From: Lactobacillus agrestimuris | GTDB lineage: Bacteria > Bacillota > Bacilli > Lactobacillales > Lactobacillaceae | Direction: 5' to 3' | DNA length: 64,000 nucleotides | Assembly: GCF_943193025.1 (NCBI RefSeq) | Contig: NZ_CALPCQ010000002.1 | Location: forward strand, 1-64,000 | Shown here: one piece after another, positions 24,962-52,044 of the stretch | Position numbering within the stretch: position 1 is the stretch's first letter | How the letters are laid out: every line of letters starts with the position of its first letter | Translations under genes and position numbers: made by a program | The notes under the pieces: generated by a model | Seen by the model: only the letters and a program-made list of their open reading frames with translations | What the model was told of the DNA's origin: nothing | Database searches by the model: none

Positions 24962-25016
24962 CGTATACTAGCATAATTCTTTGGTAATTTTAAGCTTGGA
25001 GATTGTGCTATATACT
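24962..25016 (+). promoter_or_regulatory. Island promoter 1: dyad to -10 (AKR 25064)
   Basis: cgtatactagcataa, ggtaatttt, then tatact starting 49 nt after the dyad start. Also lies upstream of the divergent LysR gene. Confidence 0.75.
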
Positions 25017-25063
25017 CATAACTGAATTAAAAATAAAAGTAAAAAATAATCTGAGGTAGAAAA

Positions 25064-25921
25064 ATGGAATATATTAAATTAAATGATGGAAACAAAATGC
25101 CAATGTTAGGATTTGGAGTCTTCCAAGTACCTGATTTAAAAGAAGCTCGTCAAGCAGTTACTGATGCAATTGATGTAGGATACCGTTTATTTGATACGGC
25201 AGCAGCTTATCTCAATGAAGAAGCAGTTGGTGCAGCAATTAATAATAGTGGAATTAATCGAAGTGAATTCTTTGTTACTTCAAAATTATGGGTGGATCAT
25301 TTTACTTATGAAAAGGCTAAGCAAGGAATTGATGATTCACTTAAGAAGTTAAACATGGATTACATGGATTTATACTTACTTCACCAACCTTATGGTGATA
25401 CTTATGGAGCTTGGCGTGCATTAGAAGAAGCACAAAAAGCCGGTAAAATTAAGTCAATTGGTGTTTCAAACTTTTATCCAGATCAAGTTAAAAATTTGGA
25501 ATTAATGAGTGATGTCAAACCAGCAGTTAACCAAATTGAAGTTTCACCATGGTTCCAGCAAGATCAAGATGTTAACTTTATGCAAAAAGAAGGTATTGCC
25601 GTAGAAGCCTGGGCACCATTTGCAGAAGGAAAACATGAAATTTTTACTAATGAGACTTTAGCTAAAATTGGTGAAAAATACGGTAAGAGTAATGGTCAAG
25701 TGATTTTACGTTGGCTTCTTCAAAGAGGAATTGTTGTAATTCCAAAGTCTGTTCATAAAACAAGAATGGAAGAAAACTTCAATGTCTTTGATTTTGAATT
25801 ATCACAAGAAGATATGGAAACAATTAGTAAACTTAATAAGAATGAAAGTCAATTCTTTGATCACCGTGATCCAGCAGCGATTGAATCAATCTTTGGTTCA
25901 AGCTTGAGCGCCTTACGTTAA
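25064..25921 (+). CDS. Aldo/keto reductase
   Basis: 285-residue NADPH-dependent (beta/alpha)8 carbonyl reductase of the 2,5-diketogluconate reductase (AKR5) type. Catalytic tetrad visible: Asp44, Tyr49, Lys74 (SKLW), His107 (LLHQP); cofactor part IPKSVHKTRMEEN near 225-240. Substrates in this family are broad aldehydes and ketones. RBS ctgaggtag. It starts a run with the next AKR (39-bp gap) under island promoter 1. Confidence 0.92.
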   Translation: MEYIKLNDGNKMPMLGFGVFQVPDLKEARQAVTDAIDVGYRLFDTAAAYLNEEAVGAAINNSGINRSEFFVTSKLWVDHFTYEKAKQGIDDSLKKLNMDYMDLYLLHQPYGDTYGAWRALEEAQKAGKIKSIGVSNFYPDQVKNLELMSDVKPAVNQIEVSPWFQQDQDVNFMQKEGIAVEAWAPFAEGKHEIFTNETLAKIGEKYGKSNGQVILRWLLQRGIVVIPKSVHKTRMEENFNVFDFELSQEDMETISKLNKNESQFFDHRDPAAIESIFGSSLSALR

Positions 25922-25960
25922 AGCTAAAAATGCGATTCTTTTGAGAGGAGAGATGTTTTT

Positions 25961-26806
25961 ATGGAAACCTTTAAATTAAATAATGGAGTTGAAATTCCAA
26001 AACTTGGTATCGGCACATTTCAAATGGAACCAGAAGCAGCTGAGAAGGCGGTAGTCGACGCTTTGAAAGATGGATATCATTTGATTGATACAGCTAATGG
26101 TTATATGAATGAAAGAGCAGTTGGACGCGCCATTAAAGAAAGTGGCATTAAACGTGAAGATATCTTTATAAGTTCTAAGCTTTGGCCAACTGTTTATGAA
26201 GATGAAAATGCAATTGATGATACCTTAAAGCGTTTAGGTATTGATTACATTGATTTGCTTTTTCTCCATCAGCCGGCAGGTAATTGGGAAAAAGGATATA
26301 AACAAATTGAAAAGGCATATAAAGAGGGAAAAGTTAAAGCTATTGGTATTTCTAACTTTCATGATGAAAAGTTACGCAAATTATTCGAAATGGCTGAAAT
26401 TAAGCCTCAAGTAATGCAAGTTGAAGCGCATCCATACTTCCCTGAAACTGAATTAAAAGAATTCTTGAAACCTTATGGTACTAGAATTATGGCATGGTAT
26501 CCGTTAGGCCATGGAGATGCAAGTTTAATTAACGAACCTGTATTTTCTGAATTAGGCAAGAAATATCACAAATCTAATGTTCAAATCATCTTACGTTGGC
26601 ATATTCAAGAAGGCAATATTGTAATTCCTGGGTCAACAAATCCTGCACATATCAAGTCCAATGCAGATATCTTTGATTTCAGTTTAAGTGCTGAAGACAT
26701 GGCAGAGATTGCTAAGATTAACAAGAATAAGAGATATTATATCCCTTCAGATAGCTTAGAAGAAAGCTATGCTAACATGAAGATGGATTTTAATTCTCAA
26801 AGATAA
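25961..26806 (+). CDS. Aldo/keto reductase
   Basis: 281 residues. Tetrad Asp43, Tyr48, Lys73, His103 (FLHQPAGNW); C-terminal IPGSTNPAHIKSN cofactor loop. It is closer to the AKR at 38446 and to the pseudogene at 51511 than to its neighbour. The C-terminal extension (SLEESYANMKMDF) is its own. RBS gagaggagag. Co-transcribed with 25064, then terminator. Confidence 0.92.
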   Translation: METFKLNNGVEIPKLGIGTFQMEPEAAEKAVVDALKDGYHLIDTANGYMNERAVGRAIKESGIKREDIFISSKLWPTVYEDENAIDDTLKRLGIDYIDLLFLHQPAGNWEKGYKQIEKAYKEGKVKAIGISNFHDEKLRKLFEMAEIKPQVMQVEAHPYFPETELKEFLKPYGTRIMAWYPLGHGDASLINEPVFSELGKKYHKSNVQIILRWHIQEGNIVIPGSTNPAHIKSNADIFDFSLSAEDMAEIAKINKNKRYYIPSDSLEESYANMKMDFNSQR

Positions 26807-26815
26807 TCGTTATTT

Positions 26816-26843
26816 AAAACTGAGTTTTAAGCTCAGTTTTTTA
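26816..26843 (+). terminator. Terminator of the AKR pair
   Basis: aaaactgag / ctcagtttt, loop ttttaag, then tttatt. Confidence 0.85.
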
Positions 26844-26876
26844 TTGCACAAATTTTTTAAATTATTATACATGATC

Positions 26877-26930
26877 TGAATAGTACCATACTTTTTTAGT
26901 AATTTTTTAATTAAGATTTATATCTATACT
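26877..26930 (+). promoter_or_regulatory. Island promoter 2 (lipoprotein flavodoxin-esterase operon)
   Basis: tgaatagtaccatac, agtaattttt, tatact starting 48 nt after the dyad start (one shorter than the others). Confidence 0.7.
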
Positions 26931-26964
26931 AAGAGTTGTTAGTAATAAAAAGGAAATGATCACT

Positions 26965-50374: not shown

Positions 50375-51163
50375 ATGGTATATTCAGAATTGAAAAATCG
50401 TGTTGCCGTTGTAACAGGCGGATCAAAAGGTATCGGAACTGCTATTTCAGAACGTTTCGGTAAAGAAGAAATGAAAGTTGTTATCAACTATCACTCTGAT
50501 GAAAAGGGTGCACAAGAAGCTGCTGACGCTGTAAAGAAAAACGGTGGGGATGCAGTTATTGTTCAAGCTGATATTGGTTCAGAAGAAGGTGCTCAAAAGT
50601 TAATTGACGCTGCAGTTGATAACTTCGGTGACCTTGACGTTTGGGTAAATAATGCCGGCATGGAAAACCAAGTTCCAACTAAGGATCTTTCATTAGACGA
50701 TTGGAACAGAGTTATCAATGTTAACTTGACTGGTGTATTCTTGGGTACTAAGATGGCTCTTCGCTACTTTACTGATCATAATAAGAAGGGTAACATCATC
50801 AACATGTCTAGTGTTCACGAACAAATTCCTTGGCCAACATTTGCTCACTATGCAGCAAGTAAGGGAGGCGTTAAGCTCTTTACTGAAACTGTTGCCATGG
50901 AATATGCTAAGCAAAACATTCGTGTTAATGCTATTGGACCAGGTGCAATTAATACACCAATTAATGCAGAAAAATTTGCCGATCCTGAACAAAAGGCTAT
51001 CACTACTTCAATGATTCCAATGGGTAGAATTGGTGATCCTGAAGAAGTAGCCGCTGCAGCTGCATGGCTTGCTTCTGATGAATCAAGTTATGTAACTGGT
51101 ATTACTATGTTCGTTGACGGTGGTATGACACTTTACCCATCATTCCAAGGTGGTCGTGGATAG
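50375..51163 (+). CDS. Classical SDR, glucose-1-dehydrogenase-like
   Basis: 262 residues. Cofactor loop TGGSKGIG (14-21), NNAG (92-95), catalytic Ser145/146, Tyr159, Lys163 (YAASK), and the C-terminal [19 protein letters not shown]. Similar to glucose 1-dehydrogenases, but the substrate can be another secondary alcohol. RBS aaggagat. A 3' duplicate fragment is at 54417. Confidence 0.92.
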
Positions 51164-51193
51164 ATTAATAAGTAATTTATATATTTAATAATG

Positions 51194-51230
51194 AACGGCA
51201 ATGGAATAATATTCTATTGCCGTTTTTTAA
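51194..51230 (+). terminator. Terminator
   Basis: aacggcaatggaat / attctattgccgtt, loop aat, T-run. Confidence 0.9.
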
Positions 51231-51249
51231 TTACTTTGTAATAGTACTG

Positions 51250-51408
51250 TTATCCAAAAATTAAATTGTCAGTGAGCAAAAATAATGAAATTGTAAAAGT
51301 TAGTGTCCAAAATAATAGTGATTATGCTGATCAAACTATTATTATAAGAACTTATGGATGGATAAAGCTATTAAATCATAGTCTCATCTATTTTTACTTA
51401 TTAAGTAT
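51250..51408 (+). other. Gap with a possible decayed frame
   Basis: A 45-codon start-less frame (NNEIVKVSVQNNSDYADQTI) is open here and ends at 51414; no family recognised. The remainder is AT rich. Confidence 0.2.
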
Positions 51409-51463
51409 ACGATAATTGTATACTTAATAAGTAATTTTTTTATTCGTGCCCCCCTTATATACT
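51409..51463 (+). promoter_or_regulatory. Island promoter 15 (now drives the AKR pseudogene)
   Basis: acgataattgtatac, aagtaattttttt, tatact at +49; the dyad is the most diverged. Confidence 0.6.
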
Positions 51464-51510
51464 AAAAACATCGAGTTAAGAAATAAAAAGCAAGTTTTAA
51501 AAGGAATATA

Positions 51511-51855
51511 TTCGGTATTTCAAACTTCGAAAGAAGTTCACGTACTTTGAAGAAAGTTTTGAACTTTGCCGAAATTAAGCCACAAGTTTTGCAAGCTGAA
51601 GCAAGAAAGGTCTTGGAACCAACCGGCACTAGACTTATGGCTTGGTACCCGCTTGGTTCAGGCGATCGTTCACTTATCAATGAATCAATTTTTAGCAAGC
51701 TTGCTAAGAAGTATCATAAGACTAATGTTCAAATTATCTTGCGTTGGCATACTCAAATGGGCTTTATCGTAATCCCTGGTTCAACTAATCCTGAACACAT
51801 TCATGACAATCACAATATTTTCGATTTTAAATTGACTGATGCTTTTTATATATAA
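51511..51855 (+). pseudogene. Broken aldo/keto reductase (paralogue of 38446)
   Basis: An in-frame 114-codon 3' part begins GISNFERSSRTLKK and ends DIFDFKLTDAFYI-like (NIFDFKLTDAFYI). The 5' half with Asp, Tyr, Lys and His of the tetrad is deleted, so the promoter and RBS region are fused to the middle of the gene. A second 27-bp deletion removes HPYFPQTEA, between two EA codon pairs (gaagca repeats). The C-terminus is frameshifted. Confidence 0.9.
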
Positions 51856-51989
51856 CTCGCAATTATACTCTCTATACTAAAGAACAAATACTTAATTATA
51901 CTTTGGCGAAAGTAAATAAACTATTCGTTAAGAAGAATTACCTAATGTTAAGAAAATTGATATCAAGTATAAAAATACTATGCATTTTC

Positions 51990-52044
51990 TGTATAGCCTC
52001 ATGCATAATAAGTATTTTATTCTATATAAAGCTCAACATATACT
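51990..52044 (+). promoter_or_regulatory. Island promoter 16 (double flavodoxin)
   Basis: tgtatagcctcatgc, aagtatttt, tatact at +49. Confidence 0.75.

Follow-up and report, generated by a model that had tools for sequence, protein, structure and literature searches.

Does the recurrence of one promoter architecture within 27 kb of bacterial DNA reflect the targets of one type of regulator, and if so, of which? This question is raised by an island at positions 24,962 to 52,044 of contig NZ_CALPCQ010000002.1 of Lactobacillus agrestimuris (assembly GCF_943193025.1), of which positions 1 to 64,000 were analysed and are called the window here. An earlier reading made from the letters of the window (the sequence-only reading) had listed 16 promoter sites, each with a dyad, a conserved tract and a -10 box, and had attributed them to one activator of the LysR family, three genes for which lie in or beside the island. 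We conclude, with a probability of about 85%, that the island is a clustered LysR regulon. The motif, its geometry, its linkage to LysR genes, the association between recognition helix and operator, a block of high identity to another species and one hybrid operator are observed; activation, binding as a tetramer and autorepression are what these features suggest.

Inspection of the letters at the 16 coordinates confirmed a site at each. Fifteen coordinates were kept as given, including 51409, although the register there could also be read as 51410, and 33587 was corrected to 33588, which then has TAAAAT as its -10 box. The sites align from 14 bases before the dyad start given in the sequence-only reading to the -10 box, save for 51409 and for 26877, which is one base shorter between the tract and the -10 box; the claimed distance from dyad start to -10 box (49 nt at 15 of the 16 sites, 48 nt at 26877) was borne out. 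A position weight matrix of 46 columns, covering the recognition and tract region with the -10 box left out, gave leave-one-out scores of 26.0–38.8 bits at 15 of the 16 sites and of 11.2 bits at 51409, and sequences made by first-order Markov shuffling of the window (40 rounds, both strands scored) peaked at 18.3 bits. At 51395..51463 (forward strand), the recognition box is replaced by a long inverted repeat, ACTTATTAAGTATAC..GTATACTTAATAAGT, upstream of a truncated open reading frame at 51547 that resembles an aldo-keto reductase (AKR). Fifteen of the listed sites are strong operator-promoters; the promoter at 51409, in front of a truncated gene, has decayed.

To establish the reach of the motif, a sequence-only profile (R1) built from the 16 sites was run against the genome of the same strain (1.88 Mb, 55 contigs, 97.8% complete). 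It returned the 16 sites, by construction, and one more on contig 23 (C23:13355), at 32.9–49.9 bits, and the next-best match after these 17 scored 14.3 bits. Equal occurrence of the motif elsewhere, named beforehand as the outcome that would speak against a regulon, was not seen, the contig 23 site being the only match outside the island that comes near the scores of the island sites.

The strongest dyad at these sites is CTATRC-N7-GTATAG, centred 3 bases before the dyad start of the sequence-only reading, from which all positions are counted here. It holds the T-N11-A of a LysR box, with T at -9 in 15 of 16 sites and A at +3 in all 16. The sequence-only reading was right that such a box exists, but its 15-bp dyad was placed about half a box too far downstream and consists of the right half of the CTATRC-N7-GTATAG box and a weaker third half-site. 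A half-site matrix scores high at -13 (reverse) and 0 (forward) and moderately at 8 (reverse), the third half-site, where 14 of 16 sites exceed the 95th percentile; the -10 box itself scores as a half-site at 47 (forward), again above the 95th percentile in 14 of 16. The conserved AATTTT tract lies at a fixed distance, at 24–29, and overlaps the -35 hexamer, which by spacing occupies positions 26–31. TTGACA occurs in none of the 16 sites, the -35 hexamer matching the consensus at 2–4 of 6 bases, and the spacer between -35 and -10 is 17 bp in 15 of 16; the -10 boxes are TATACT (12 sites), TATAAT (2), TAAACT (1) and TAAAAT (1). If transcription starts about 7 nt after the -10 box, the centre of the recognition box falls at about -64, and thus matches the rule, given in an excerpt of PMC8407307, that the box of LysR activators usually sits near -65.

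All three candidate regulators are encoded on the reverse strand. LysR A (24056..24931; 291 amino acids, TTG start; PF00126, E 3.4e-14) is divergent from site 24962, LysR B (32706..33563; PF00126, 9.6e-15; LysR_substrate, 5.4e-8) has the variant recognition helix SPATISRG, and LysR C (53313..54215) has 300 amino acids as called, although its start may be at 54188. The N-terminal winged helix-turn-helix (HTH) of the LysR family, PF00126, is matched by all three at 51.8–54.7 bits against a cut-off of 26.6; for PF03466 (LysR_substrate), LysR B scores 32.9 bits against a cut-off of 28 and LysR A 19.2 bits, and LysR C gave no report at 0.001. LysR C is 60% identical to LysR A. Their HTHs had been described as nearly identical, which applies to the helix region (27 of 28 residues) but not to the whole HTH (46 of 61). 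None of the three reaches an NCBIfam cut-off among the families listed, which include named LysR equivalogs (AlsR, CidR, GltC, CcpC, HypT and others): among the best 25 of 45–51 families per protein, the top scores were 66–80 bits against cut-offs of 210–600. Redox sensing through a conserved cysteine was considered and rejected, as at most 3 of 32 LysR rows share a cysteine and 21 of 32 have none.

LysR C has a partial operator of its own at 54206..54250 (forward strand; site 54220, 11.2 bits), in which the box is kept and the AATTTT tract and the -10 box are lost. Box-only operators also precede the C-type LysR genes of three other stretches (L055, L059 and L067), and such reduced operators would fit autorepression without a divergent target. 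A truncated short-chain dehydrogenase gene, close in sequence to the intact copy at 50375, adjoins LysR C at 54345-54716. Another C-type LysR (L115, NZ_CP072985.1) lies on a 319-kb record labelled as a plasmid of L. intestinalis, with a TnpB gene and type I-B CRISPR genes nearby.

We then considered whether operator and regulator keep company in other genomes. In a search of 60 genomes, drawn from the own strain, its genus and its order, matches to the profile and to LysR A mostly fell in the same places. Among 350 Lactobacillaceae genomes, searched with thresholds of E<=0.001 for the site and E<=1e-25 for LysR A relatives (the filters here were stricter and missed weak matches, giving 14 instead of 17 sites in the own genome), 107 had a site and 102 a LysR A relative; 97 had both, 10 a site only, 5 a LysR only and 238 neither (Fisher p 3e-67, uncorrected for shared descent). 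The operator usually lies from a few bases to about 30 nt before a divergent LysR gene, and it stands directly before one in Levilactobacillus spicheri, Lentilactobacillus dabitei, Companilactobacillus insicii and C. hulinensis. Among 89 LysR rows taken from 120, mostly ones with a site among the matches listed, so that the rate is not unbiased, 83 had a divergent site within 600 nt, 79 of these at 11–32 nt; the six misses include G025:960018, for which the 60-genome search does show a site. From stretches chosen for LysR genes or sites we examined 60 LysR genes, 56 of which have a recognisable operator (scores 8–46, four of them box-only), located in 55 cases 5–20 nt before the LysR start implied by the alignment.

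The fixed spacing claimed for the window also holds beyond the training sites. The -10 box is at offset 49 in 41 of 53 sites outside the window (53 of 60 rows: five L050 copies and two sites with the box only were removed, while the contig 23 site, one identical pair and orthologous pairs were retained), and the best -10 box is at this offset in 40 of 47 LysR-linked operators of other species, which were kept from the 60 after eight from the window, G016 and G009, two exact duplicates and three without a site had been dropped. In a subgroup of sites (L057:926, L061:7409, L069:5995 and L070:6330), offset 49 is occupied by TAAAAT and a second -10-like box follows at offset 54; two members of the subgroup precede AKR2-type genes.

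The operator bases themselves point to the adjacent regulators. For 53 operator-helix pairs with different operators (7 of 60 dropped: three without a site, one ambiguous, three exact duplicates), association was tested with near-identical pairs unmerged and shared descent ignored. Where helix residues 35-36 are Arg-Gly, operator position 1 is G in 41 of 41 pairs, and with other residues it is non-G in 10 of 12; Thr34 is accompanied by T at operator position 4 in 44 of 44 pairs, and Ser34 by A in 5 of 9. LysR B has operator halves TAGTTTGC..CGTAAACT, the same as those of its orthologue in species G016 (helix STATISRG), and a relative in G025 (SAASVSRG) has TAGATTAC..CGTAATCT, with both halves altered together. 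Judged by this association, operator bases vary with the recognition helix of the adjacent LysR. The notion of one activator for all sites simplifies the picture slightly: 33588 is a variant operator adjoining LysR B.

Alternative explanations of the island have to account for these observations as well. If the sites had spread from a single promoter segment that was mobile or recently duplicated, they would be alike by descent, as some partly are: 50268 and the contig 23 site are 82–96% alike beyond the motif, the spacers of 28572 and 33588 share 0.72 and the downstream stretches of 28572 and 46546 share 0.68 of their bases, the operator at 46546 is a hybrid of two operators, and several target families are paralogous. 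However, identity between site pairs is 0.58 in the recognition box, 0.78 in the AATTTT tract and 0.79 in the -10 box, against 0.32 in the spacer (mean over 136 pairs), 0.32 upstream and 0.36 downstream, with 0.28 expected by chance; therefore, selection rather than recent copying keeps most sites alike. The motif also recurs in other genera with different flanks. Near-chance flanks led us to reject copying as a general cause, apart from the cases just named, and we give this explanation next to no weight. It is scarcely more probable that the motif belongs to another regulator that merely lies near these LysR genes. The genome has 13 genes with a LysR-type HTH, and ten genomes have sites without a LysR A match at 1e-25, but operator variants change along with the recognition helix of the LysR next to them, and in several genera operator and LysR gene are direct neighbours. 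An unlikely, though less remote, explanation is that LysR A and LysR C are mainly repressors, which would block the promoters until a ligand releases them. The third half-site and the AATTTT tract extend into the -35 region, and the TATACT -10 box scores as a half-site, so that bound protein could block polymerase. Against this, all 16 sites have a non-consensus -35 hexamer, so that a released promoter would be weak, and a box centre near -64 is typical of LysR activators according to the excerpt of PMC8407307. The geometry and the missing -35 consensus thus lead us to favour activation over repression.

Several findings weigh against the regulon interpretation. The 10 of 107 site-bearing genomes without a LysR A match include G012, G036, G026 and G335, the first three of which also showed sites without a match in the 60-genome search, and in G008 the site is far from its LysR. 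Five LysR-bearing genomes have no site above the threshold, although four of them (G013, G029, G030 and G061) have lower-scoring or variant operators, with none in G149. Three of the 60 LysR genes lack an operator in the 330 nt scanned, one of these having a site about 520 nt away, and one more is ambiguous; the helix rules have exceptions in 2 of 12 and 4 of 9 pairs; and, across the 16 sites, there is no fourth half-site at 21, as the spacing of the first pair would predict, and AATTTT fails the half-site matrix. G012 has a partial LysR A match at 7e-21. In G012 and G036 (L069 and L070), two operators lie 168 bp apart, probably as remnants of an island. Taken together, the restriction of the motif within the genome, its co-occurrence with LysR A relatives and the helix-linked operator bases support the LysR regulon proposed in the sequence-only reading.

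In the mechanism that we propose for this regulon, LysR A, and probably also LysR C, whose helix region is nearly the same, would bind the T-N11-A box at about -64 of each promoter. A second pair of subunits would probably reach the AATTTT tract over the degenerate -35 region and help RNA polymerase at promoters that lack TTGACA but have a good -10 box and a 17-bp spacer. At its variant box, LysR B would act likewise, probably serving one MFS transporter. The LysRs, whose binding sites lie a few bases from their own start codons, probably repress themselves too. LysR is probably activated by a small molecule from gut or food, for which an aldehyde, ketone, quinone or other electrophile is the likeliest candidate; active LysR would then switch on efflux along with reductases, flavodoxins, esterases and hydrolases. 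The island would have grown out of a LysR gene paired with an aldo-keto reductase gene.

The genes behind the operator-promoters, all on the forward strand, are consistent with such a role. Operator-promoter 1 (24948..25016, site 24962) leads to the aldo-keto reductase gene at 25064, presumed to form the ancestral LysR-AKR pair, and the first operon encodes two aldo-keto reductases (25064..26806; 285 and 281 amino acids): the product of 25064 is DkgA-like, under the NCBIfam cut-off, and matches PDB entries 4mhb, 1vp5 and 3d3f, and that of 25961 is assigned by resemblance. Number 2 (26863..26930, offset 48) precedes a flavodoxin gene at 26956, with a lipoprotein-like start as judged by eye, and an esterase gene at 27601, and number 3 (28558..28626) an NAD(P)H-binding protein gene at 28658. 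Three genes at 29457-32474, which we take to encode a small regulator, a DegV-like protein and an amino-acid permease, have no site and are excluded from the regulon count. The B-type operator-promoter 4 (33574..33642) precedes the MFS transporter gene at 33670, and numbers 5 (35014..35082) and 6 (36045..36113) precede an esterase gene at 35116 and an aldo-keto reductase gene at 36154. Number 7 (37221..37289) lies before an alpha/beta hydrolase gene at 37452, 162 nt downstream of the -10 box, number 8 (38337..38405) before an aldo-keto reductase gene at 38446 (family by resemblance), and number 9 (39373..39441) before a permease gene of a sugar-transport family at 39491 (PF06800, 3.2e-88).

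The right half of the island continues this pattern. Operator-promoter 10 (40603..40671) is followed by genes for a flavodoxin at 40705, an esterase at 41344, an EIIC-like protein at 42301 and a DUF915 hydrolase at 43550, and number 11 (44420..44488) by those for a flavodoxin at 44502 and a ferric-reductase-like membrane protein at 45228. The hybrid operator, number 12 (46532..46600), precedes an NAD(P)H-binding protein gene at 46638 and a hydrolase gene at 47513; number 13 (48587..48655) a flavodoxin gene at 48666 and a zinc alcohol dehydrogenase gene at 49154; and number 14 (50254..50322), which has the near-copy on contig 23, a short-chain dehydrogenase gene at 50375 (by eye). After the decayed promoter 15, number 16 (51976..52044) precedes a gene at 52088 for a double flavodoxin protein. 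Several flavodoxins of the island have lipoprotein-like N-termini, judged by eye. This target set suggests a carbonyl or electrophile response; the inducer proposed above comes from gene content alone, and both it and the detoxification role are to be read as conjectures.

To learn how such an island could arise, we took a census of the first genes behind 78 sites outside the window, five of them without a called gene. The first gene is of the AKR1 type, which resembles DkgA, YvgN and 2,5-diketo-D-gluconate reductase, at 34 of the 78 sites. In other genera it comes first at 25 of the 32 sites that a called gene follows, with at least one in each of 23 stretches, and in the same genus at only 9 of 41. 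The ancestral unit was probably a LysR gene with one aldo-keto reductase gene, a pair that is common in Lactobacillaceae. The own genome and one relative have enlarged this pair to 16–18 sites: in the 60-genome search, the own genome has 17 sites, G016 has 18 (17 of them at 737–790 kb), G025 has 8 and the remaining positive genomes have 1–4 each, and in the 350-genome search the top count in another genus is 6 (G310).

Part of the island has probably been exchanged between species. A 14-kb block with nine operators (32702..47300) is on average 93–97% identical in DNA to species G016, aligning in three pieces at 92.7%, 96.9% and 95.1% with 40390-40578 unaligned. The rest of the window is 65–74% identical over stretches of at least 300 bases, with some other island pieces at 82–88%; exchange is probable because the identity of the block is far above the 65–74% found elsewhere. 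At the left end of the block, from LysR B to the esterase gene, identity is 84–90%, and the LysR B proteins of the two species are 81% identical; the operator-bearing A-type LysR of G016 shares 55% identity with LysR A. Different parts of the island may have moved on separate occasions. We considered whether a plasmid had carried the block and set this aside: one record only, an L. pentosus plasmid with an AKR gene, gave a 73% match over 6% of the query. Relatives of the LysR proteins were found on four plasmid records, two of them from Lactobacillaceae (L. intestinalis and L. pentosus).

The operator at 46546 matches one G016 operator in its left part (97% over 3033 bases) and a second G016 operator, 975 bp away, in its right part (95% over 768 bases). 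The box-tract region is covered by both matches, and between the two operators G016 has a 292-codon AKR-like frame. A crossover inside the operator either removed this AKR-like gene from the window or brought it into G016. Hybrid operators were sought at all 16 sites against six sequence sets, and only that at 46546 is claimed. The contig 23 site (C23:13355; L073:10369) nearly repeats 50268 for about 155 bases, as far as a start codon, and now lies 228 nt before an NAD(P)H-binding gene. Tentatively, and at somewhat less than even odds, the operator may be regarded as the joint of a modular regulon, in which operator-headed cassettes are gained, lost and traded among Lactobacillus species, recombine within the operator and plug into the resident LysR. 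An incoming cassette could do so because the recognition helix is conserved though the regulators differ. The hybrid operator and the block shared with G016 would then be two traces of cassette exchange.

Several known systems resemble the island in part. With the general scheme of recognition-binding and activation-binding sites (RBS/ABS) of LysR-type transcriptional regulators, it shares the HTH_1 domain, a T-N11-A box near -65, a conserved -35 element and a regulator gene divergent from its target; it differs in having about 15 promoters of the same geometry in 27 kb and three related LysR genes, of which one has an operator reduced to the box. OxyR, also of the LysR family, activates promoters in oxidative stress, but no counterpart of its conserved redox cysteine pair was found here. 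The closest functional parallel is E. coli YqhC, an AraC-family activator whose gene, in the excerpted text of PMC5297802, is divergent from yqhD and yqhE/dkgA, encoding aldehyde-clearing reductases. It likewise combines a divergent activator gene with a DkgA-type aldo-keto reductase target, but belongs to an unrelated protein family and has two adjacent targets instead of an island. The LysR regulons of lactic acid bacteria, also Lactobacillales, that are reconstructed in PMC3616900 are three cysteine/methionine regulons and MleR, and the main text of that paper does not contain the words 'oxidoreductase', 'flavodoxin' or 'aldo'. No description of the LysR-AKR pair or of the motif was found in the open-access literature, judged mostly from listings.

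Our findings add a group of LysR regulators, with no earlier description found, that has a precise operator. The range from single-target pairs to expanded islands is a natural series for studying how regulons grow, and the paired changes in helix and operator make LysR specificity directly testable. For lactobacilli, the island predicts one switch for a broad set of genes (for reductases, flavodoxins, esterases and efflux) whose products may deal with reactive chemicals of food and gut.

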